Virus record (IMG/VR): IMGVR_UViG_3300033998_000311
Coordinates: 1 to 20,689 of that record
Direction: 5' to 3' (one strand)
Length of the DNA: 20,689 nucleotides
Source of the DNA: a virus
Under the pieces are notes generated by a model. That model was not told the origin of the DNA. It did no database searches and saw nothing but the letters and a program-made list of their open reading frames with translations. Both the position numbers and the translations under genes were made by a program. Below are positions 3,358-18,612 of this stretch, piece by piece. The first letter of the stretch is position 1. Each line of letters starts with the position of its first letter.

Positions 3358-4130
3358 TCAGGCTCGAGAAAGCACTAGTGAATAAGGGACTTCGGCTGAC
3401 AAATCAGTTTCTGCGAAAACTTGCTGGTCTTCTTGTGACACAGGAGATCGGCACAAAAACGTTTGAATGGCTAAGAGCACACATACAAGCACAGATCGGT
3501 GAGTACGTTACAACGTTCCAGCAACAGCTCGAGCCTGAGCTACTTGACCTGTTTGTGTGGGCAGTCAAAGAGGCACATAGTGATCTTCGGATCACTTTTC
3601 GCGGTATACCCCTCGATACGCTTGGCTGGTTCCACGAGAACTTCCTTGCGCTGGAAAACACAGTCATGCGCAATTACGCAGGAGATCTGATGCGCAAGAT
3701 CGAAAACACCCTGCTTCCTGCACTTATCACCGGAACACCTGCAGACGAGGTGATGAAGATCCTGCTCAAAGAGATCAAACCGACAGCGAATCAGCGAATC
3801 CCCGTGATGGTGCGTGACCAACTGGGCCATGCGATGCAACAAGGAATCTGGCGGACATACGAGCGCTTCCAGGATATCGTAGAAGGCTACAGGTGGGTAG
3901 GCCCATCAGACCGGAGGACGACAAAGTGGTGCAGAAACAGGAAAGAGATCACACGTGAGCAACCCTGGACGCCCGAGGAGGTGCAGAGATACATCGCAAC
4001 AAACCCGCAGAAATTGAAAGGGAAAGAGATCCGTGCACGCCATGGTACGTTTCTGCATCCTCACATCCAGTGCAGACATCGACTGCTTGCAATTCCGAAG
4101 AGAGTATACGCATTTGTGAGGGAGGGATGA
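3345..4130 (+). CDS. Head morphogenesis protein, SPP1 gp7 / Mu F-like
   Basis: This 261-residue protein follows the portal, as gp7 follows gp6 in SPP1. The N-terminal two thirds is helical. The C-terminal third has the usual signature: YRWVGPSDRRTTKWCRNR (about residues 183-200) and then HPHIQCRHRLLAI close to the end, a conserved Cys/His arrangement of the minor head protein family. Proteins of this family bind the portal, are packaged into the prohead at low copy and influence DNA ejection. It overlaps the portal gene by 13 bases, which suggests translational coupling. Confidence 0.85.
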   Translation: MDRLIRLEKALVNKGLRLTNQFLRKLAGLLVTQEIGTKTFEWLRAHIQAQIGEYVTTFQQQLEPELLDLFVWAVKEAHSDLRITFRGIPLDTLGWFHENFLALENTVMRNYAGDLMRKIENTLLPALITGTPADEVMKILLKEIKPTANQRIPVMVRDQLGHAMQQGIWRTYERFQDIVEGYRWVGPSDRRTTKWCRNRKEITREQPWTPEEVQRYIATNPQKLKGKEIRARHGTFLHPHIQCRHRLLAIPKRVYAFVREG

Positions 4131-7271: not shown

Positions 7272-8210
7272 ATGGCCTACACAGGTGCAAAAAGCTCCAT
7301 ACTCCTTGGAATAGAAAGCACATTCGGAAGTGCGGCAATGCTCGAGTACAGAATCCCCTTCACGAGCGAAAGCATAAACTTCCGCGCACACACACAGACA
7401 TCCGAGGCTCTGCTGGGAGTAAGAGGAATCAAAGCGCTCGCTCCAGGAAAGTTGGGTGTTGAAGGCACAGTTGAGGCGGAAGTCTATCCATACTCCACGC
7501 CTGTTCTGTTCTTCCTTGCGCTCGGGAAAGCAACACTCGAGACAGATCACACGAAAATCGTTCCAATCTCACTCAGCGAAGATCTTCCGAGCGCAACAAT
7601 ACAAGTCGATCACGCAGGGCAAAAGTTTCATTATGTCGGCGTCAAGGTAAATCAGCTGACTTTCTCAGGCTCCGTGGGAGCAATCCCCAAAATCTCCATC
7701 GACGTGGTCGGAAAAGACGAAATCGAAGGCGGTGCAGTTGAAGGAACAATCACAGAGCCGGGCGATGAACCCTACTACTTCCGCGAACTGAAGCTGTACA
7801 CAGACAACTTCACAACCACCACAGATCTGTACTCCTCCATCGAGCTCACAATCAACAACAATCTCGACACCGACGACTACAGGCTTGACGGCACAGGAAA
7901 AAGGAAGACGCTTGAGCCTCAGCAACTTGAGATCACGGGGCGTCTTGACATCATTTTCGATGCATCTGTGATTTCCGGAGAATACGCAAAGTTCAAGAGC
8001 TTCCAAGATGCCGCACTCGGAATAGAGCTTGCAAAGACAACAGGCGAGAAACTGCAGATCTACCTTCCGAGAATCAGGTTCAGCGAGATCAACCACGACA
8101 TCGGCGGAGCAGAGAAGATCGTCATGAGCGCATCCTTCACAGCACTGGTTCCTGCATCAGGCGATATCATCGAAGTCAGAGACTATGTCAACACAACAGG
8201 TTCATACTGA
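7272..8210 (+). CDS. Major tail tube protein
   Basis: This 312-residue, strand-rich protein has the size and composition of the Phage_tube family. An opening stretch (YTGAKSSILLGIESTFG) is followed by repeated short beta strands, a central KISIDVVGKDEIEGG segment, SSIELTINNNLD, QQLEITGRLDIIFD and a C-terminal segment (KIVMSASFTALVPASGD). Such proteins form the stacked hexameric tube through which DNA passes. ATG 7272 follows GAGGAGGG at the right distance. ATG 7266 is too close. It is larger than the roughly 150-200-residue minimal tube proteins, so an extra decorating domain is possible. No sheath gene is present beside it. Confidence 0.82.
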   Translation: MAYTGAKSSILLGIESTFGSAAMLEYRIPFTSESINFRAHTQTSEALLGVRGIKALAPGKLGVEGTVEAEVYPYSTPVLFFLALGKATLETDHTKIVPISLSEDLPSATIQVDHAGQKFHYVGVKVNQLTFSGSVGAIPKISIDVVGKDEIEGGAVEGTITEPGDEPYYFRELKLYTDNFTTTTDLYSSIELTINNNLDTDDYRLDGTGKRKTLEPQQLEITGRLDIIFDASVISGEYAKFKSFQDAALGIELAKTTGEKLQIYLPRIRFSEINHDIGGAEKIVMSASFTALVPASGDIIEVRDYVNTTGSY

Positions 8211-8569: not shown

Positions 8570-9041
8570 AGTCGGGGGCGGTTGGGTAGTACTCCGCCCC
8601 CTCACTGTTCGTGGATATCAGCTATTTCGAGAAGGCGAAAGACTTCTCTGTCTTGCACTACACATCCACGAATGGAGTGAGAACGTACCTATCACACTCA
8701 GCAACGTTCGACGATTGCGAAACGATGTTGTTGACACGCTGATGAAAGAACTCCTCGCAACAGTAGAACCTGTTTTCTCGATGGACAAAGACCTGCTCAG
8801 GCGCTACGTTTCGATGTTTCTCCGAAACGTTCGAGCACCTCAGGACAAGACGTACAAACTCCTCTCCGAGAAATACTTCTGGCATGCACAGATGATGCTC
8901 GACCACAAAGGAAACATCGTGCAACTTCCCGAGTGCGGGGGCTGGCTCGATCAACCCCTTGATTGGGCGATCATCCTCGAGCTCTACAGGGTCGAATACG
9001 TGAAACTTCTTGCTTCACAAAACAAAGGAGTGAGAGCATGA
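8556..9041 (+). CDS. Tail assembly chaperone, downstream ORF
   Basis: This 161-residue protein lies in the +1 frame relative to the gene before it and ends in ATGA shared with the tape-measure start. In many siphoviruses the second chaperone ORF is made as a fusion by ribosomal frameshifting. Here an independent ATG at 8556 has AGGGAG four bases upstream, so ordinary initiation is also possible. The protein is rich in Leu, Trp and Arg, with HAQMMLDHKGNIVQLPECGG near its end, and I do not recognise a domain. Open +1-frame overlap before the first stop is only 8547-8569. Confidence 0.65.
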   Translation: MRLVEVGGGWVVLRPLTVRGYQLFREGERLLCLALHIHEWSENVPITLSNVRRLRNDVVDTLMKELLATVEPVFSMDKDLLRRYVSMFLRNVRAPQDKTYKLLSEKYFWHAQMMLDHKGNIVQLPECGGWLDQPLDWAIILELYRVEYVKLLASQNKGVRA

Positions 9042-11917
9042 ACACAGCGACGCTCTCTGTCATTCTGAAGGCAGTAGACAATCTCTCTCCAACCTTACAA
9101 AAAGCAGAGGGGAGACTTGCGACGTTCGATGCGAAGGTAAAGAAGTTTTCCCAGGGACTCAGCACTGCAATAAAAGGCGTCACGGCGACAATGAGCGCAT
9201 TAACAACACTCATCACTTCCGCGACGTATTTCGGGGCAAAGTTTGAAAAAACTTTCCAGAACGCGCTGACAATGTTCGACGCCTCGCAGGAGCAAATTGA
9301 CAATCTCAAAAGATCTCTCACAAGGCTTGCGCAAGAGTACGGTGTTTCCTTTGAACGGCTCAACAACGCTCTCTATACCCTCGGTTCTGCAGGGATAGAT
9401 GCAACTCACGCAATAGATGTGCTTGAAAAAACACTCAAGGCTTCTGCCGCTGGTGCTACAGACGTCCAGCTTGCCTTCGAGGGTGCGATCGGAATTATCA
9501 ATGCGTACGGCATGAGCATCGAGGATCTCAACACGGTGTACGCAATGCAGTTCGAGGCGGTCAAAAAAGGTCTGCTCACATACGAGGAGCTTGCACGCGA
9601 CTTTGGAACAATCATTCCCGCGGCAAGAAACCTCGGTGTCTCGCTGAGAGAAGCAATGGCGGGCTATGTGGCACTAACCACCGCAGGTATTCGCTCTGCG
9701 GAAGCGGCAAACGCCGTAGAAGGAGCCTTTCAAGATATCATGCAGCAGGCGGACAAATTCGAAAAGCTCGGCATAACGATCTACGACGCAAACGGGCAGT
9801 TCATAGGACTCACAAACGTCGTGGAACAGCTCTACGAGAAGATGAAGGGACTTTCTGACGCAGAAAAGAGAGCATTTCTGGAACAGCTATCGCTCTCTGA
9901 GACAGGCACAAGAGCAATCCTAACGTGGGTAAACAACCTCGAAAAGTACAGAGATGTGCTCGAAGGCATCCAAGGAAGCACAGAAGCACTGAATGATGCT
10001 TTTGCAAAGCAGACAGGCAGTATCTCGTTTTTGCTTGCAAAACTAAAGTCAGGCTTTGAAACTCTCAGCCTTGCACTATTCGAAGCGATACGTCCCGAGC
10101 TTGTCAAATTTCTCACTTTCGCGATTGGAAAAATGTCTGATCTTGCAAACTGGATCAAAGCAAACGCGTCGGTTCTGGGTCCGATGATCTGGAGCTTGCT
10201 AAAATTCGGTGGTCTTCTCCTTGGCGTGCTCATCCCTCTAAAATTCTTCGCCGAAACGATTCGAGCGGTAGCGCATCCGGCGGTTCTGATTCTACTTGGT
10301 ATAGCAGGTGCAATCGCGGGCATCTGGAAGCTCCAAAACAAAGGCAAGGGCTTTGTGGACTTCCTACTGTGGCTCGGGCAAGTAGCAGAGTCTGTGTGGA
10401 AAACATTTCAGAAGTGGGGAGAAGAAATCGCACAGCTGATGGAAGCAAGGAACGCGCAGAGTTTCTGGGAACGCCTCGTGGTCTTTCTCGAGTGGTTCTT
10501 CGCAAAAGCAGGAACGGGCGCAGCAAATTTTCTCGACTGGCTCGGCAACAAACTGCTGGCCTTCCTCGGATGGCTATGGGAGCAATTCAAAAAGGGAATG
10601 GAACAAGGCTGGGAGTGGCTCAAGGAGCTGTTCGCGTGGGTTGGGCAGTTGCTGTTTGAAACGATCGTGGTACCCATCGTCGACGCACTGCAACAGATCT
10701 TCAAGAAAAGCGTCGACTGGATGAAGGACGTAGGAAGCGGGATCCTGAGCGGACTCAAAGGCGCAGGAAAAGGCCTTGCGACCTTCGGGGGCTGGCTCAT
10801 CGGAAAAGATTGGCTCTGGGGTAAACAGGAAGGTGGATACACAGGCGATGGCCCCGTCGATCAGATCGCTGGTTTTGTACACGCAGGCGAATACGTCATT
10901 CCCGCGTGGATGGTGAAGAAATTCCCTACACTCGTGGCGGTGCTTGAGCGCATCAGAAGACGTGGGTATCAAGCAGGAGGTGCCGTTGGTGCCGGCGTTG
11001 GAACAGTACACACAGTTGCACTGGATCTTTCTCCTTTTGCCACGATCGTAGGCAAGATACAAGAGCAAACAAGACAAGCACAAGCAGAAGCGAAGAAGTG
11101 GTGGGAAGAGTTCCTGAATACTGCAAAAGACACGTGGACACGCTTCAAAGATTGGTACTCGAACTCATTCATTGCAGAAATTCTCAGCGAAACAGAATCG
11201 ATCAAATCCGCAGTGGATAGCTTTCTCATAAGTCTTCTCGGGGATCTATATCAGCTTCCAGGGGGCACGATCCTTGCACAATTCGTGCAAACGCTCTGGG
11301 ATCTCATAAGCGGTCTCGAAAGCGTGCAAAAACTTCTCAACCCCATCGGAACAATCCTCGAAGCGATGATGAAAGTAGTAAGTCCCATCATCGACAGCGC
11401 ACTGATGCCGTTTGTAGAACTGCTCACAATCCTCGGTCAGACGATAGGCACACTTCTTGTGCCCTTGCTCGAGCCCTTCAACGCACTCCTGCAGGCACTT
11501 GCACAGATTTTCCTGTGGCTCTACAACACAATTCTGAGACCTATCGCAAAAGGCCTCTACATCGTGTTCAGCATTGTAGCGGACGCATTCAACGTACTAT
11601 ACAACGTTGTCTCGGACATTGTAAGGGGCCTCACGTTCGGGATCATCAACCTCGGTCGCAGAACAGTGAAGGGGCTTGATCGGATTCTCAAGGAAGCAGA
11701 GGAAAAATTCCCCGAAGCACAGTTTGGAAGCACTGCGGAAAGCTACACGCAAGAGTATGTAGCAAACGTCACACGTACAGGCCCTGAGACGGTGTATAAC
11801 ATCATAAACCTGTACGCAAACGAAAGTTTTATCATGGATCACAAGCAGAAATTCTATGACTTCCTTGCTGAAGCAATACAGGAACTCATCGACACAGGAC
11901 AAATAAAATTTGCATAA
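9038..11917 (+). CDS. Tail tape measure protein
   Basis: This 959-residue protein sets tail length and probably helps DNA enter the host. The first 300 residues match the TP901-type tape measure domain, with LARDFGTIIPAARNLGVSLR and an Ala-rich helix TTAGIRSAEAANAVEGAF. Hydrophobic helices lie at about 390-430 (LLLGVLIPLKFFAE, VLILLGIAGAIAGIW). The typical GGYTGDGPVDQIAGFVHAGE / YVIPAWMV motif starts at about residue 599. Residues 430-594 hold 16 tryptophans. ATG 9038 is chosen because AAAGGAGTGA precedes it and it forms ATGA with the previous stop. At roughly 0.15 nm per residue the tail would be near 140 nm. Confidence 0.93.
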   Translation: MNTATLSVILKAVDNLSPTLQKAEGRLATFDAKVKKFSQGLSTAIKGVTATMSALTTLITSATYFGAKFEKTFQNALTMFDASQEQIDNLKRSLTRLAQEYGVSFERLNNALYTLGSAGIDATHAIDVLEKTLKASAAGATDVQLAFEGAIGIINAYGMSIEDLNTVYAMQFEAVKKGLLTYEELARDFGTIIPAARNLGVSLREAMAGYVALTTAGIRSAEAANAVEGAFQDIMQQADKFEKLGITIYDANGQFIGLTNVVEQLYEKMKGLSDAEKRAFLEQLSLSETGTRAILTWVNNLEKYRDVLEGIQGSTEALNDAFAKQTGSISFLLAKLKSGFETLSLALFEAIRPELVKFLTFAIGKMSDLANWIKANASVLGPMIWSLLKFGGLLLGVLIPLKFFAETIRAVAHPAVLILLGIAGAIAGIWKLQNKGKGFVDFLLWLGQVAESVWKTFQKWGEEIAQLMEARNAQSFWERLVVFLEWFFAKAGTGAANFLDWLGNKLLAFLGWLWEQFKKGMEQGWEWLKELFAWVGQLLFETIVVPIVDALQQIFKKSVDWMKDVGSGILSGLKGAGKGLATFGGWLIGKDWLWGKQEGGYTGDGPVDQIAGFVHAGEYVIPAWMVKKFPTLVAVLERIRRRGYQAGGAVGAGVGTVHTVALDLSPFATIVGKIQEQTRQAQAEAKKWWEEFLNTAKDTWTRFKDWYSNSFIAEILSETESIKSAVDSFLISLLGDLYQLPGGTILAQFVQTLWDLISGLESVQKLLNPIGTILEAMMKVVSPIIDSALMPFVELLTILGQTIGTLLVPLLEPFNALLQALAQIFLWLYNTILRPIAKGLYIVFSIVADAFNVLYNVVSDIVRGLTFGIINLGRRTVKGLDRILKEAEEKFPEAQFGSTAESYTQEYVANVTRTGPETVYNIINLYANESFIMDHKQKFYDFLAEAIQELIDTGQIKFA

Positions 11918-11920
11918 GGG

Positions 11921-11945
11921 GGGGCGTAAGCCCCTGTTTTTTTTT
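11921..11945 (+). terminator. Rho-independent terminator after the tape measure gene
   Basis: The stem GGGGC/GCCCC (11921-11925 and 11930-11934) with loop GTAA is followed by TG and nine T. It separates the tail-body genes from the AT-rich tail-tip cassette. No clear promoter is visible before the next gene, so read-through or an unrecognised promoter must express it. Confidence 0.82.
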
Positions 11946-11966: not shown

Positions 11967-12305
11967 ATGGTTCAAAGCACAACAAAACCAAGCGAAATTC
12001 AAATAATTTCAACTACTGATGACGTTAAAAAGAATAAAGTATTAGTCAAATACGCATTCAACTATAACATAACAGAAAAACAGATTGAAGAAACATTTAT
12101 TGATGAAAACGAGAATACAACAACACAGCTTGTTACAGTTTATGAATATTACCAATATATTTCAGAAGCAGAATTTGACTTACTTCTAAAGCCGTTTATT
12201 CCAGAGTTACTGAAACAAATGTACAAGCAGCTCGAACCAATTATTCAGGAACGATTGGATTTGGCAAGTACAGAAACACCGAAGGAAATTACGCTTGAGG
12301 GGTGA
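11967..12305 (+). CDS. Small tail-tip cassette protein (copy A)
   Basis: This 112-residue protein of unknown function has AAAGGAGGG (11952-11960) before the ATG. Its N terminus (KPSEIQIISTTDDVKKNKV, then KYAF) matches the small protein at 17293-17463 (KPAEIRILRTQDDLKKGTC, then RYAF), and both end in a similar EITLEG/EISLGE tail. Copy A carries about 50 extra residues in between (QLVTVYEYYQYISEAEFDLL and a helical LKQMYKQLEPIIQERL). Each copy directly precedes a fibre-like gene, so it may be a fibre partner, attachment protein or chaperone. The gene is strikingly AT-rich with AAA/ATT/TTA codons, unlike the tape measure gene before it. Confidence 0.75.
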   Translation: MVQSTTKPSEIQIISTTDDVKKNKVLVKYAFNYNITEKQIEETFIDENENTTTQLVTVYEYYQYISEAEFDLLLKPFIPELLKQMYKQLEPIIQERLDLASTETPKEITLEG

Positions 12306-12311
12306 TAATTG

Positions 12312-13463
12312 ATGGCTTTAGTTAAAACAAATTATGGATTGATATACAACGATGACGGTTCTCTCTGTGTGACGATAAGGAAGGACGACGTCCCCTTCCC
12401 CGGCGTCACGTCCTTTGCGCTGGAGGAGGGGACGACGAATTTGTTTACGAATCCAACATTTCAGAATGGTGAAAGTGGGTTTGATTATATTTGGGGTTGG
12501 TCTTCTCGTACAATCAAAGATGGTGGACCTTTAGGAAGGTATATTGAGCTCGTTGATTCAAACCCGGAAGCTGGTAATTACTATGGGCACACATTTAATG
12601 TAACACCAGGACAAACATATACGTTTTCTGTTTATATCAATGTATTAGAGTGCCAAGGTGGGGAAGTTGTTTTATATTACCATTGCCTTGATGCAAATGG
12701 TAATGTTATATCAGGAGCAACAAGCTTTGGAATAGGTGAAGAAGTGCCAAGCAATTTTATTGGTCAAGGTTGGAGAAGATACAAAATTACAGTTACAGCA
12801 CCTGCGAATGCAGCAAAAGTAAGAGCTTTTGTGTACTCTTATATACGAGCAACCAGCCGAATACAAGTCACAGGTTTTCAATTTGAAGAAAAACCCTTCG
12901 CAACCTCGTTCGTGGATGGGATGAGGGCGGATGGACAACTGCGAATTGAAAATGTTCTCCGGAATCGTGATTCATGGGTAGTATCGTTCTGGTATAAACA
13001 CCCTGGAGATTTTTCAGTCACCAGAATGCTATTTGGTTCACCAGAAAACGATATAGTTGATCCCAACGAATTTTCTGTATTTGTAACTTCAACTGGGACA
13101 ATCAAAATACTCAATAGAGTGAATAACACAACAATCTTTTCAATCGAATCGAGCGCCAGCATTCCTGCGAACGAGTGGATATTTCTAACGTTTATCTATA
13201 CTGGTAGTGAGATCCGTGCATACATGAACAGAAATCAGATATTGTCAGGAACCGCAACAATTAACTGGAATTTTACGGCCGGAGATCCTTCTAAGCTCTG
13301 GATTGGATCTGTACGAACAGGTAATTTAAGTCGAACAGGCGGACTGTTTGCAAACCTTCTCATTGCCCGCTACGACCCCGCCATCTGGACGGACGAGTAC
13401 ATCAAAACGCTGTATCAAGCAAGAAGGCCATTTGCAGTACCGCCGAAGTTACCGATTGTGTGA
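12312..13463 (+). CDS. Tail fibre/adhesin with CBM-like and LamG-like domains (copy A)
   Basis: This 383-residue protein has three parts. Residues 1-22 (KTNYGLIYNDDGSLCVT) are shared with the fibre-like gene at 17469. Residues about 38-200 form a beta-sandwich resembling carbohydrate-binding modules, opening with EEGTTNLFTNPTFQNGE and containing VTPGQTYTFSVYINV and GWRRYKITVTAPANA. Residues about 215-375 resemble a concanavalin/LamG fold (SWVVSFWYKHPGDF, ANEWIFLTFIYTGSEIRAYM, KLWIGSVRTGN). Such architecture suits receptor or glycan binding at the tail tip. ATG 12312 follows GAGGGGTGAT. The gene is AT-rich inside the domains and GC-rich at their borders, as if assembled from pieces. Confidence 0.8.
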   Translation: MALVKTNYGLIYNDDGSLCVTIRKDDVPFPGVTSFALEEGTTNLFTNPTFQNGESGFDYIWGWSSRTIKDGGPLGRYIELVDSNPEAGNYYGHTFNVTPGQTYTFSVYINVLECQGGEVVLYYHCLDANGNVISGATSFGIGEEVPSNFIGQGWRRYKITVTAPANAAKVRAFVYSYIRATSRIQVTGFQFEEKPFATSFVDGMRADGQLRIENVLRNRDSWVVSFWYKHPGDFSVTRMLFGSPENDIVDPNEFSVFVTSTGTIKILNRVNNTTIFSIESSASIPANEWIFLTFIYTGSEIRAYMNRNQILSGTATINWNFTAGDPSKLWIGSVRTGNLSRTGGLFANLLIARYDPAIWTDEYIKTLYQARRPFAVPPKLPIV

Positions 13464-13472
13464 GGTGAGAGC

Positions 13473-16400
13473 ATGATACAGCCTCTGAGCCTTGACACAA
13501 ATTACAAGGTGTATTGGCGACATCCTACACGCTACAAGAAGATTCTCTTCTACGCAAAAATAGACGGGCAGAACTGGTACGATCTCAGCGATTATGTTCT
13601 CAAAGTGCGCATCAGCAACCGCATCGAACTCCTCGAGTCTCCTGCAATTGACACAGCAACGGTCACAGTGCGTAACGTGAACAACATGTTCACACCGACG
13701 CAGTACAACGATACTTTTGACCCCGTAAATGGCAAGCTAAACGGCACTCCTGAGCAGGGCTATTTGAACAAATTGTGGGAAGTCCGTCTATACATACTCA
13801 CAACAAGGTGGGGTGACGGAATTGAACTTCCTGCAGGCGTAATTGAGTACTGGAGAGAGACGCTTTTGGGAGCACTAAACGACACAGTCCCTGACGGCTA
13901 CACAGCTTTCGCAGAAGACGAACACACAATTGTTATTCCCCTTTTTGCGGGCTGGAAACCTGCAAACGCAATCACAGAAAGGCACAAGGAAGCGGACATC
14001 GAGCTGAAAGACCTGCTCTGGGTTGCATCGCAGAAGAAACCTGCAAATCCCCTGCTCTACGTGAACTACACGCCTGATCAGATCATCCAGGACATCCTTG
14101 TGAACAGACTCGGTCTCGATGCTTCGTATCTGGATCTTCAGACTCTCACAACTCCATGGGAAGTCTTCATCGCAGACAACAACAAGACGTGGTGGCAGAT
14201 TCTACAGGAGATCACGCAGGCAACAGGAGGAAAACTCACCTGCTCACCTGACGGCAAAATCGTTTTCCGCACACGCATCGAGAACTACACCGAGCCTGCA
14301 ACAGCAGTCACAATCACTGCAGACGACATAAAGAACTATTCCATCGACACAAAAAGGCAGTACAACCAGATCCGCATTGAGTCGAAGGGGTACGAAATAG
14401 GAAGCTCAGCAGAGTATGTCATCGACCACGAGCTTCAAGGAGACGCTTCTGTTGTCAAAGCAGGGCAGACAGCAACGTTCGAGCTCGAATACAACTGCGA
14501 GTACGTGAAAGATCCTGCAAGCAACGTGCTTCTCACCTACTACCTTGGCGACACGGCAGTAGCAGTAGACAGATCCTTCACAGCAGGACAGAGCGCCGGA
14601 AACATTCGAGTCGATAAAATCTCAGCCTATCCAGATAAACTCACGTTGAAGATCACAAACCTTGCAACAAGCGTGGACTACACGATCAAGCACGTGAAGT
14701 TCTCTGCTATCCCAATCAGGCTCAAAAGCGAACTCAAACTCACAAAACCGAACCAAACCAGCGAGCCCGACTCAGAACTTTCCTTGACATCCTATTACTC
14801 AACTGAAGCGATGCTCTCAAACGTTGCAGACGCACTCTACAGCGAGACAAAGAAGAACATCAAGTTCTCTTTGCAAATGAACGAGTTCTACCCAGATGTG
14901 TTCGCAGGAAACCTTGTAGAACTCCAGCTTCCCCCAAAGGGCATCGCTTCAGGAAAATTCCTTGTGTACTCAGTCGAGCACAGCCTTGAAGCACAGAGAT
15001 TTCAGACGACGCTCAGCATCGTCGAGTGGAGCGATGTTGTGTTCAGCATAAGCGACAAGGAGATCACGCAGGCAACACCTGAAGACGCAGTTCTTCCTGA
15101 ATACTCCGAGGTTGCGAGTCACCTTCAGACGCTCGACAACAGCGTGCAAGATCTTACAGCGCAGGTACAAGAAATCGACAACCGCACAAGCTACATCGAC
15201 GGTTCCGCCCCAGCAACCCCCACAGGACTATCCCTTGCGACGCTAACTGAGGATGGAAGAAGCTACATCACAGCATCCTGGAACGCAAACACAGAACCCG
15301 ACCTGCTCGGCTACGAGCTTGCTTGGAGCTACGACGGGGCAAATTGGAACTACATCACAACAGCAGACACCCTTGTTCGCTTCGAGGTCGCAGGAAACAA
15401 AACAGTCTATGTAAGGGTGAGAGCGTACGACGCGGAAGGCAAAAAGTCGGGCTGGACGTCTGCAAGCATTGTATCAGCAAAGGACGAAATTCCTCCTTCA
15501 ACTCCTACGGGACTTACAGCGGTTGGACTTTTCGAGAAAGTCATGTTGCGCTGGAACGAAAACACAGAAGAGGACTTTGACGTCTACGAACTTCAGGTTG
15601 CAACAGACAGCAACTTCACAGAAAACGTGCAGACAATTACATTGAAGGCAACCTCTTTCACTTTTGCGGGAGAGGTGAACACAACCTACTACTTTAGAGT
15701 CCGCGCAAAAGACACAAGCGGAAACGCAAGCAACTGGAGTAGCACAGTCTCAGCAAGCACAGTGAATCTGAATGATCCCAATTACTACGACTACGCAGCA
15801 ATCAAGACAGCGATCATCCAGGGCAGTTACATCGACAGTGCGTGGATTTCTGAACTCGACGCCGGGAAGATCACAACAGGCTACCTCGATGCAGATAGAA
15901 TCGCAGCAGGATCTATCACAATTGACAAGCTCACAGTCACCCCCTCTTTCGGTGTCCCAACAGGCACAATCGCATACTGGACGAACTCGTTAGTGGACGA
16001 GATTGGGCAGATAACACCTGACGGGTACACAGAAATCAACCTTGCTCCTTCAATTGCTCTCACACCCGACAATGCACCAGAGGGAAGTGTTGTGGCAGAT
16101 CTGCTAGCTGGAAACAAAATCTTCGCAGGAAAAAGCATTCAGGTGGGAAACAAAGTCTTCATCGAAAACACTTCTGCAGACAAGGGTGTTATAAGAATCA
16201 ACTCGGGAGGAACGGACATTGTCAAGATTGGTGAAGGTGTCCTTTCAGATGGTGGAGACGGAATACGAGTGAAGAACGGGAGGATTGAAATTGTCTCTGC
16301 AACATCAAAACGCTTACTTGATTCGAATGGAATACGTCAGATGTACGTTATACCTATTATCGATCAAATTGATTCGTCACATCCTCTGACTATACCTCTG

Positions 16401-16976
16401 CATCTTCCTGCGAGTACGACATCATCGGGAACAACATCAGCAACTGCACGAATCATCGCGAAAGTAGAAAAATTCCGTGCTACAACATCAGGTGTGACAT
16501 CTTACAGCGGTGCAACGGTTACTACAACAACGAGTGGAGGTTCTCACTCTCACGCCGCCTCTACGTATTCTGGAGGATATCATAAACATTCAGGTGCTGC
16601 ATCTGTGGTTGACGGTCATACACATTCAGTTTCAGGTTCCACAACAGGTCCTGCAGGTGCTCACACTCATAATATCAGTATAGCCCCCGCAATAAGCCAT
16701 ACACATGACGTGGGAGTCTCCAGTTACAACACTTCTCATTCGCATAGTGTATCAATCCCCGGCCACTCACATTCATTAAGATACGGCATCTATGAAAGCA
16801 CAGCCACAGCGACTGTGACAGTCAAACTCAATGACAATTCACTGGGAAGTGTTTCTACAGGCAACACTCTTGATTTAGCAAATATTTCCATCGCCGATGG
16901 CGATACAATCACGTTCTCTTCATCCAATCTCGCACGTGTCGTAGCCTTCATTTACGTTGAATACATCATGCAGTGA
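13473..16976 (+). CDS. Tail hub / central fibre protein with two Fn3 domains and a seven-HxH tip
   Basis: This 1167-residue protein resembles lambda J in plan. The N-terminal 550 residues look like a baseplate hub (WYDLSDYVLKVRISNRIELL; WWQILQEITQATGGKLTCSP). A short coiled coil (LQTLDNSVQDLTAQVQEID) follows, then two Fn3 domains (about 579-668 and 671-763), then the stalk-like segment DAGKITTGYLDADRIAAGSI. The C terminus carries seven HxH motifs (first His at residues 1025, 1037, 1049, 1064, 1076, 1089 and 1098) in Gly/Ser/Thr-rich sequence. In T4 gp37 such a trimeric region forms an iron-binding needle. From about 16300 the DNA becomes more AT-rich. The start follows GTGAGGTGAGAGC. Confidence 0.88.
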   Translation: MIQPLSLDTNYKVYWRHPTRYKKILFYAKIDGQNWYDLSDYVLKVRISNRIELLESPAIDTATVTVRNVNNMFTPTQYNDTFDPVNGKLNGTPEQGYLNKLWEVRLYILTTRWGDGIELPAGVIEYWRETLLGALNDTVPDGYTAFAEDEHTIVIPLFAGWKPANAITERHKEADIELKDLLWVASQKKPANPLLYVNYTPDQIIQDILVNRLGLDASYLDLQTLTTPWEVFIADNNKTWWQILQEITQATGGKLTCSPDGKIVFRTRIENYTEPATAVTITADDIKNYSIDTKRQYNQIRIESKGYEIGSSAEYVIDHELQGDASVVKAGQTATFELEYNCEYVKDPASNVLLTYYLGDTAVAVDRSFTAGQSAGNIRVDKISAYPDKLTLKITNLATSVDYTIKHVKFSAIPIRLKSELKLTKPNQTSEPDSELSLTSYYSTEAMLSNVADALYSETKKNIKFSLQMNEFYPDVFAGNLVELQLPPKGIASGKFLVYSVEHSLEAQRFQTTLSIVEWSDVVFSISDKEITQATPEDAVLPEYSEVASHLQTLDNSVQDLTAQVQEIDNRTSYIDGSAPATPTGLSLATLTEDGRSYITASWNANTEPDLLGYELAWSYDGANWNYITTADTLVRFEVAGNKTVYVRVRAYDAEGKKSGWTSASIVSAKDEIPPSTPTGLTAVGLFEKVMLRWNENTEEDFDVYELQVATDSNFTENVQTITLKATSFTFAGEVNTTYYFRVRAKDTSGNASNWSSTVSASTVNLNDPNYYDYAAIKTAIIQGSYIDSAWISELDAGKITTGYLDADRIAAGSITIDKLTVTPSFGVPTGTIAYWTNSLVDEIGQITPDGYTEINLAPSIALTPDNAPEGSVVADLLAGNKIFAGKSIQVGNKVFIENTSADKGVIRINSGGTDIVKIGEGVLSDGGDGIRVKNGRIEIVSATSKRLLDSNGIRQMYVIPIIDQIDSSHPLTIPLHLPASTTSSGTTSATARIIAKVEKFRATTSGVTSYSGATVTTTTSGGSHSHAASTYSGGYHKHSGAASVVDGHTHSVSGSTTGPAGAHTHNISIAPAISHTHDVGVSSYNTSHSHSVSIPGHSHSLRYGIYESTATATVTVKLNDNSLGSVSTGNTLDLANISIADGDTITFSSSNLARVVAFIYVEYIMQ

Positions 16977-16988
16977 GGAGGTGCGAAA

Positions 16989-17222
16989 ATGTATAAGGTT
17001 ATTTATGGAGGACATACTTTTGAGAACTTGTCAGAACTGCGGGAAGAGAACTTTCCCAACGTGATAGTAATTACAGTTCCAGGAGCAATCAATGACGTGC
17101 CCACATCAGGAACACTCCAGATACTCAAAGATGATCAAATCATCAAAGAAGTGACTATCACTCGTGTGAAGGTAGTGATCGACTACTTGAGCGAAACGAC
17201 TCACATCTTCTTCAACTACTGA
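16989..17222 (+). CDS. Small tail-tip protein, unknown function
   Basis: This 77-residue protein has GAGGAGGTGCG immediately upstream of the ATG. It is mostly beta: YKVIYGGHTFENLSEL, then FPNVIVITVPGAINDVP, then SGTLQILKDDQIIKEVTI and a last strand. There is no membrane segment and no Cys. It follows the hub by 12 bases and precedes the second fibre cassette, so a role in fibre assembly or as a small tip component is likely. I do not recognise a family. Confidence 0.65.
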   Translation: MYKVIYGGHTFENLSELREENFPNVIVITVPGAINDVPTSGTLQILKDDQIIKEVTITRVKVVIDYLSETTHIFFNY

Positions 17223-17237
17223 GAATGATGTGGCTGA

Positions 17238-17267
17238 TATTATGCTCATCGGTATTATGCTCGTCGG
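17238..17267 (+). repeat. 15-bp tandem repeat, two copies
   Basis: TATTATGCTCATCGG (17238-17252) is followed at once by TATTATGCTCGTCGG (17253-17267), 14 of 15 bases identical, then TAT. It sits in the 70-base gap before the small cassette gene. Read through in frame with that gene it encodes a hydrophobic MLIGIMLVGI. In another frame, from ATG 17225, it encodes a 15-residue peptide with CSSVLCSSV. Confidence 0.7.
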
Positions 17268-17292
17268 TATAAAAGAAACAGGAGGTGATCGT

Positions 17293-17463
17293 ATGATCTT
17301 CTCAGCTGAAAAACCTGCTGAAATCAGAATTCTCAGAACACAGGACGACCTCAAAAAAGGAACGTGCAAAGTGCGCTATGCATTCCGCTTTGCGATTCAG
17401 GAGCCAACGCAGACTGAAATAACCTATTCTGAAGTTCCTTCAGAGATCTCGCTGGGGGAGTGA
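17293..17463 (+). CDS. Small tail-tip cassette protein (copy B)
   Basis: This 56-residue paralogue of the protein at 11967-12305 shares KPAEIRILRTQDDLKK, RYAF and the EISLGE end but lacks the roughly 50-residue middle insert of copy A. ATG 17293 follows a near-perfect AGGAGGTGAT (17280-17289). The in-frame extension back to GTG 17230 crosses a tandem repeat and has no ribosome site, so I reject it. Unlike copy A, its codons match the bulk of the phage (ATC, CTC, AAG). It directly precedes the second fibre-like gene. Function unknown. Confidence 0.72.
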   Translation: MIFSAEKPAEIRILRTQDDLKKGTCKVRYAFRFAIQEPTQTEITYSEVPSEISLGE

Positions 17464-17468
17464 TGTGA

Positions 17469-17765
17469 ATGGCACTCAACAAAACAGATTACGGTCTCAT
17501 CTACAACGATGACGGTTCTCTCTGTGTGACGATGCGGCGAGTAAGGATTTTTGGTGGTGCAATCGAAATTTACGACGGAAGTACAGCGCCCCCACTATTA
17601 ATTTCTCAGAATGGGTTTATTGGAGTCTCTGCAGCAACGGGTTATGGATTAATGGTCGGCGGCTCCCATTCGTCATTTCCTTCAAATCCACCAACAGGAG
17701 CAATTATTTTAAAGGGTGGCAAATTTTACGGTTATAACGGCTCTTCGTGGGTAGTTTTAGGTTAA
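17469..17765 (+). CDS. Short fibre/tip protein (copy B)
   Basis: This 98-residue protein has a first 22 residues (KTDYGLIYNDDGSLCVT) that repeat the start of the 383-residue adhesin at 12312, including 32 identical bases (12345-12376 = 17502-17533). After that the two are unrelated. Here a Gly-rich beta segment follows (FGGAIEIYDGSTAPPLLISQ, then GYGLMVGGSHS). The protein ends GGKFYGYNGSSWVVLG, an ending widely seen in short phage tail-tip proteins ('G-K-F-Y-G-Y-x-G-x-x-W'). The DNA turns AT-rich after about 17560. It is probably a small receptor-binding or capping protein, or the remnant of a longer fibre. Confidence 0.72.
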   Translation: MALNKTDYGLIYNDDGSLCVTMRRVRIFGGAIEIYDGSTAPPLLISQNGFIGVSAATGYGLMVGGSHSSFPSNPPTGAIILKGGKFYGYNGSSWVVLG

Positions 17766-17789
17766 AGAGGTGGTTGACGGTGAAATATG

Positions 17790-17811
17790 GCCCTCATTCG
17801 AGGGCTTTTTT
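17790..17811 (+). terminator. Rho-independent terminator after the tail-tip module
   Basis: GCCCTC (17790-17795), loop ATTC and GAGGGC (17800-17805) are followed by six T. It ends the tail-tip region just before the phosphoesterase gene. Confidence 0.82.
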
Positions 17812-17832
17812 CATGCCGAAAGGGGGTCTTAA

Positions 17833-18612
17833 ATGAACGTTGCAACGTATGAGTTCGAAAGCGAGTACGTGGATATCTTACCGCTTGGAGATTTACATCT
17901 TGGTTCAGAAGAAAGTATGTTTGACAAAGCAGTAGAATTTGTAGAAAACAATCCAGAAGCCAAAATAATCCTTCTTGGAGACCTTGTTGACAATGCAATT
18001 TGGGAAAGTTTGGGCGATGTGTACTCTCAAGTCACAAATCCGCATGGTGCTTTGGAAACGATAGCAAACTTTTTGACTACATTTAAAGATCGCATTCTCG
18101 GCGTTGTTGGAGGAAATCACGAAAGGCGGACGTGGAGAAAGGTTGGAGTAGACCCAATAAGCTTATTATGTAGTCAATTGCAGATACCATATGCAGATGA
18201 TTTATTGGTTTTGGATATTGGGATTAAAGGTAAATCTTCTTTTAGAGGTAGTAAGCGAAGAACTCATTATGCAATTGCCTGCCATCACGGAGGAGCTGGT
18301 GGGCGGTTTCCAGAAAAATCGATACGACAGCACAGATATTTTCAGAGTATGGTAAGCAACGTCGATATTTATATTACAGGACACACACACGTGCCACAGG
18401 CAAGTATGACTGCGGTATATGAATATGATCCACGAAACAAAAACATAACGATAAGAAACATGCAACATATAACGATACCTGCTTGGACGCAGGAAAAATA
18501 CGCAAGACAAAAGCTATTACCACCAAGCCCTGCAACAGTGCTAATCCTGCGATTGTACGCATCAAAAGAGAAGAAACACGAAGTGTTTATGAAGTCGAGG
18601 CGAGAAGTATGA
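17833..18612 (+). CDS. Calcineurin-like metallophosphoesterase
   Basis: This 259-residue protein has the full set of dimetal phosphoesterase motifs: GDLHLG (Asp20, His22), LLGDLVDN (Asp50), GGNHERR (Asn95, His96), HHGG (His151/His152) and GHTHVP (His184, His186). The family hydrolyses phosphoesters in nucleic acids, nucleotides or proteins, and the substrate cannot be read from the sequence. It lies between the tail tip and lysis genes, an unusual site for DNA metabolism. The gene is AT-rich with ATA/TTA codons, so it was probably acquired separately. AAAGGGGGTC precedes the ATG. Candidate roles include DNA repair, host nucleic-acid processing or countering nucleotide-signal defences. Confidence 0.9.
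   Translation: MNVATYEFESEYVDILPLGDLHLGSEESMFDKAVEFVENNPEAKIILLGDLVDNAIWESLGDVYSQVTNPHGALETIANFLTTFKDRILGVVGGNHERRTWRKVGVDPISLLCSQLQIPYADDLLVLDIGIKGKSSFRGSKRRTHYAIACHHGGAGGRFPEKSIRQHRYFQSMVSNVDIYITGHTHVPQASMTAVYEYDPRNKNITIRNMQHITIPAWTQEKYARQKLLPPSPATVLILRLYASKEKKHEVFMKSRREV

Follow-up and report, generated by a model that had tools for sequence, protein, structure and literature searches.

The virus fragment analysed here probably encodes a modular receptor-binding fibre with a dedicated partner protein (a chaperone or an attachment protein), together with a reduced second copy of this two-gene unit. The window (the whole analysed stretch, a virus record of 20,689 bases) carries head, tail and lysis-type genes. 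Its closest annotated phages are Marinitoga camini virus 1, Marinitoga camini virus 2 and MPV1, which are phages of Thermotogota; MPV1 is a temperate siphophage (PMC11921389). By sequence comparison, the window represents part of the genome of a Thermotogota siphophage that is kin to these viruses, and contigs L003, L004 and L013 represent nearly the same virus. Furthermore, CRISPR array spacers of Thermotogota genomes match the window phage with 90-100% identity (L101-L105; arrays are shown in G071, G102 and G074, and the matches in G070 and G105 are spacer-sized hits). These matches point to relatives of the spacer-bearing species as the probable hosts. They fall at the following positions:

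2561-2599, 3410-3446, 3777-3814, 3889-3926, 3957-3995, 7743-7783, 8125-8161: spacer matches, first part of the window
8574-8613, 10305-10344, 14689-14726, 15433-15469, 15619-15660, 15750-15790: spacer matches, second part of the window

The four genes of interest lie where the first-pass annotation had placed them, i.e., one pair of small gene and fibre gene before the hub gene and one pair after it. The region is organized as follows:

11920-11945 (+): terminator-like hairpin (scan) after the tape measure gene and before the small gene; marks the left border of the fibre module
11967-12305 (+): P0001, full-length small partner protein, 112 aa, PHROG 38476, GC3 0.29
12312-13463 (+): P0003, long fibre gene, 383 aa
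12312-12443 (+): conserved 44-residue N-terminal segment of P0003 ("anchor")
12345-12376 (+): 32-nt patch, first copy, identical to 17502-17533; its start is the GC3 jump from 0.18 to 0.79
12444-12878 (+): variable module 1 of P0003, CBM_4_9-like (weak Pfam hit, E 0.006, below the curated cut-off)
12879-12935 (+): conserved linker of P0003 between the variable modules, QxExKPFATSFVDGxRxxG
12936-13370 (+): variable module 2 of P0003, Laminin_G_3 / concanavalin-A-like lectin fold (Pfam, E 1e-11)
13371-13463 (+): conserved C-terminal tail of P0003, YDPxIWTDxYIxxLYxAxxPFxVPPK
13473-16976 (+): tail hub / central fibre-like protein, 1167 aa (phrog_32822, phrog_31)
17293-17463 (+): P0002, shortened second small protein, 56 aa
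17469-17765 (+): P0004, 98 aa, fibre N-terminus (about 24 residues) joined to a tail-tip-like C-terminus of unrelated sequence
17502-17533 (+): 32-nt identical patch, second copy
17789-17811 (+): terminator-like hairpin (scan) closing the second-copy site, before the metallophosphoesterase gene

The two hairpins bracket the fibre-hub block and may mark module borders. Hairpins were also read by eye at the site equivalent to the first one in L005-L008, L020, L049 and L083, and the segment around the second one (17790-17835) has 93% identity to a prophage whose identity to the window is about 65-76% elsewhere. Inspection of the window ORFs by eye revealed neither a reverse transcriptase nor an invertase, so a retroelement or an inversion switch is not indicated in this fragment. 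The frequency of promoter-like sites in a scan of the window was not above that in shuffles.

Alignment of the long fibre with its relatives gave a conserved start, a variable part, a conserved linker, a second variable part and a conserved tail. In Pfam, the LamG domain of P0003 is clear and the CBM_4_9 domain weak, and from domain type and position the variable modules would be those that bind receptors. The comparison of L006 with L007, which come from different metagenome records, is especially informative. Outside the fibre the two are practically the same phage (tape measure 100%, small gene 99.7%, hub 100% identity). Within the fibre, the identity is 99% for the anchor, 87% for the linker and 95% for the tail, and 50% for each of modules 1 and 2, which is the level expected for unrelated DNA under such alignment. 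Moreover, module 2 of L006 is close to that of a different phage, L008 (score 417; most other pairs score 26-101, and one 182). In the window itself, GC3 jumps at every module border of the long fibre: it is 0.29 in the small gene, 0.18 and 0.79 at the start and the end of the anchor, 0.22 in module 1, 0.62 in the linker, 0.40 in module 2 and 0.51 in the tail. Taken together, the L006/L007 swap, the L006-L008 match and the GC3 jumps show that the binding modules are replaced by recombination at conserved joints. The long fibre indeed has a fixed N-terminus and distal modules that are exchanged among close relatives (L006/L007, domain score matrix), and its description in the first-pass annotation as an exchangeable receptor-binding module agrees with the L006/L007 comparison.

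We therefore propose the following working model. The long pair (11967-13463) would be a receptor-binding cassette with a fixed N-terminus, two exchangeable modules of carbohydrate-binding type and a fixed C-terminal tail. Homologous recombination in the conserved DNA between the modules would swap the binding modules and leave the rest of the phage unchanged; L006 and L007 thus represent a clean natural experiment, in which the binding modules alone have changed. The AlphaFold model of the long fibre was poor (mean pLDDT 56.5), i.e., below use for a fold search. A scan of viral contigs with P0003 revealed no relatives because the scan patterns fell in the variable modules. Some weak hits of 17 residues (L014-L017) were set aside as chance matches.

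Exchange of fibre modules together with a partner gene is already known, e.g., from Alteromonas phages A5 and V22, whose host-recognition modules comprise a tail fibre and its cognate chaperone (PMC10579305). As in the window, a fibre is accompanied there by a small partner gene, and the module is recombined between otherwise different phages (PMC10579305). As points of difference, the partner gene in our phages is usually located upstream of the fibre gene, the searches with the small protein revealed no link in sequence or fold to a solved protein, and its role as a chaperone is putative.

The small protein was modelled with good confidence (mean pLDDT 84.7, 14 sequences). The predicted fold consists of beta strands at approximately residues 11-19, 24-45 and 51-71 and, C-terminal to these, a long helix (72-102). 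Foldseek comparison of this model with PDB and viral models returned nothing at an E-value of 0.001 or better, and the best value in a profile search of PDB sequences was 0.14. Likewise, P0001, P0002 and six relatives had no Pfam match above the cut-off, the known tail-fibre assembly chaperone families included. The first-pass annotation could not place the protein in any known family; it does belong to one, PHROG 38476, but this family carries no function. Should the small protein act as a fibre chaperone or adaptor, it would be one without a recognisable relative.

The linkage of the small gene to the fibre is evident from several data sets. In a profile scan of 31 loci, 22 had a full-length small gene immediately in front of the fibre anchor, corresponding to about 16 distinct phages (some of the 22 loci are the same phage from two collections, and the L028 contig starts at residue 5). 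The anchor is also present in seven of 103 Thermotogota genomes; in all seven, a full-length small gene precedes it on the same strand, with a gap of 9 to 45 nt in six genomes and of about 200 nt in one. The prediction that the small gene always directly precedes the fibre gene holds for these loci and genomes but fails in two contigs. In L078 (6015-6036, 11771-12103), the fibre directly follows the tape measure, and a single intact small gene is located after the hub; homologues without a fibre gene had been named beforehand as evidence against the module, and this gene is a partial instance of that kind. In L088 (1-840), whose contig starts inside the fibre, the order is reversed, which likewise runs in part against the module as first described: a LamG fibre ends just before the small gene, and other genes and a terminase-like gene come next. 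Finally, in L072 and L079, which belong to other phage types, the N-terminal segment of the fibre occurs without a small gene in the stretches read. These exceptions mean that the association is strong but its position is not fixed, and that the N-terminal segment can be found elsewhere without the partner.

The same exceptions bear on a different explanation, namely that the small protein is a general tail-tip or tape-measure-associated protein that happens to adjoin the fibre. In most phages the small gene does come after the tape measure gene, in L078 it lies apart from the fibre, and the fibre segment of L072 and L079 stands without it in the stretches read; in L088, however, it comes directly after the LamG fibre with no tape measure between them, and we consider this explanation doubtful. 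The gene arrangements rather support the small protein as a regular partner of the long fibre. As such, the 112-residue protein would most likely aid folding of the fibre or its attachment to the tail tip. PHROG 38476 thereby gains a context, i.e., one intact copy per phage, at or near a LamG-type fibre, in several phage lineages.

To our knowledge, the receptor-binding modules of Thermotogota phages have been little studied. The gene order tape measure-(extra gene)-small gene-fibre-hub of the window is also found in Marinitoga camini viruses 1 and 2 (UF08_34/35, UF09_37/38) and in MPV1 (MPV1_38/39), with 53-55% identity for the small protein and 30-34% for the fibre; unlike the window, these phages have no second copy after the hub. 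Tsac_2847 of Thermoanaerobacterium phage THSA-485A shares with the window fibre a part consisting of EEGTTN, a carbohydrate-binding-like region and QxExKPYATSY, but has another N-terminus and no small partner gene before it. The TDYGLIYNDDGSLCATL segment was also noticed in tail proteins of other phage types (a 508-aa ORF on the reverse strand of L072; L079, 5162-6712), once internally and once at an N-terminus, where the protein immediately follows a hub whose last residues are GLKPLGME. A stretch resembling GLKPLGME, namely GLKPSG, is joined to the TDYGLIYNDDGSLCATL segment within one protein of L072.

The likeness between the two pairs was examined at the protein and DNA levels. In BLASTP, P0001 and P0002 have 18 of 37 residues identical (E 7e-12) and P0003 and P0004 20 of 24 (E 7e-12), the E-values being those of single pairwise comparisons. 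In addition, the profile of phrog_38476 matches P0001 over residues 1-112 of 112 (E 7.9e-32) and P0002 over residues 1-46 only (E 4.1e-7), and that of phrog_38142 matches P0003 (E 9e-57) and only residues 1-24 of P0004 (E 5.9e-10), so that P0002 and P0004 are partial members of these families. The agreement of BLASTP with the independent PHROG profiles indicates that the likeness of the copies is not due to chance. Some details of the first-pass annotation need correction: the motif common to both small proteins is spaced KPxEI-x(6)-DD instead of x(8), and the 22 N-terminal fibre residues described as the same are similar but identical at 19 positions, 14 of them in a row (YGLIYNDDGSLCVT). The fibre starts have 53 nt of DNA in common (89% identity) with an exact 32-nt core (12345-12376 / 17502-17533).

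The second pair is greatly reduced. P0002 keeps the N-terminal 47 residues and the last nine of its family with nothing between them, and it thus lacks the predicted strand 51-71 and the helix 72-102, i.e., half of the predicted fold. As read from the sequence, the DNA of its last residues coincides in part with the ribosome-binding site of the gene downstream, and these residues may thus have been kept for translation signals only. In P0004, the fibre N-terminus extends over about 24 residues, and unrelated sequence ending in FYGYNGSSWVVLG follows. A C-terminus of this type also closes the hub of L024/L025 (50% identity over 46 residues, E 2e-5, one record); the C-terminus alone gave no match in phage records. 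As no domain was recognised in P0004 beyond its first 24 residues, its label as a fibre draws on the N-terminus and a generic tail-tip-like C-terminus. Second-site copies are shortened in the window and L013, interrupted by one stop in L021 and decayed in L023; the small gene at this site is thus broken in three lineages and intact only in L078, which has no first copy, a pattern given by few cases, with most phages having no second copy. Two full-length small genes were seen in no phage of the 31-locus profile scan. By eye, the hub-metallophosphoesterase interval contains varied accessory ORFs in L020, L065 and L078 (lipoprotein-like and others), as does the region after the hub in L063 and L070, so the interval has the look of a general insertion site. 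We regard the short pair (17293-17765) as most probably an old leftover. Rather than a second working cassette, it would be a reduced and dispensable relic at a site that these phages use at times for the partner gene.

The short pair could instead be a functional mini-fibre, with P0004 occupying the same attachment sites as the long fibre and presenting another small tip, which would give two kinds of tip. In fact, the short ORFs are open and closely coupled and have good ribosome-binding sites, the end of P0004 is plausible as a tail tip and resembles the L024/L025 hub C-terminus, and the pair is intact and identical in L013, the sole other copy. However, half of the predicted fold is missing from P0002, other lineages carry broken copies at the second site, and a short anchor protein was found in no other phage, which makes a working mini-fibre unlikely. 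A related proposal appears quite unlikely as well, namely that the short pair is a minimal receptor-tip unit, in which the stripped partner and a fibre reduced to the anchor and a hub-like tip would compete with the long fibre for its attachment sites; if true, one virion would carry two kinds of tip from two cassettes.

A single local duplication of the whole two-gene unit with subsequent divergence would account for the exact 32-nt repeat in the fibre starts but is quite unlikely, since a clade of P0001 and P0002 was rejected in trees (p-AU 0.001 and 0.002, with P0002 filling only half of the columns), the DNA of the small genes is identical at just 62 of 138 positions over the first 46 codons, and the composition break in the long anchor suggests that the front part of this anchor has been replaced. 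The simple form of this duplication is hence rejected for the small genes, which by the tree tests are of different descent, and the claim that the pair was duplicated as a unit has to be withdrawn: the second copy is truncated or decayed, and none of the phages seen has two full-length small genes. An old duplication with later replacement of the front half of the long copy is possible.

Several observations bear on such a history. In the trees, P0002 groups with L050 and the second-site genes of L078 and L021, although without strong support. The window small gene resembles the L005-L008 group (67-72% identity), and the first 11 residues of the window fibre are identical to those of L008; the "PFPG" of the window anchor is common to L050, L068 and L083. 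In the long fibre gene, the GC-rich 3' part of the anchor DNA starts at the first base of the 32-nt patch, and the AT-rich stretch before it includes the small gene together with 33 nt at the beginning of the fibre gene. The exact coincidence of the patch start with the break in base composition fits recombination at this point. The 32-nt exact repeat is the longest among the pairs compared, followed by one of 24 nt in sister phages. The simplest reading of these sequences, and a likely one, is that the second site received a copy of an older cassette, that the front half of the first cassette was replaced later by recombination within the anchor, and that the second-site copy decayed. The anchor protein scores alone do not settle this history, with L006 and L018/L020 slightly above L050.

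The hub protein itself has a peculiar C-terminal region: many His-Ser/His-Thr repeats (GHSHS and similar) are encoded at 16490-16780 of the window. Such repeats are also present in the hub of L005, and the hub of L024/L025 has another end.
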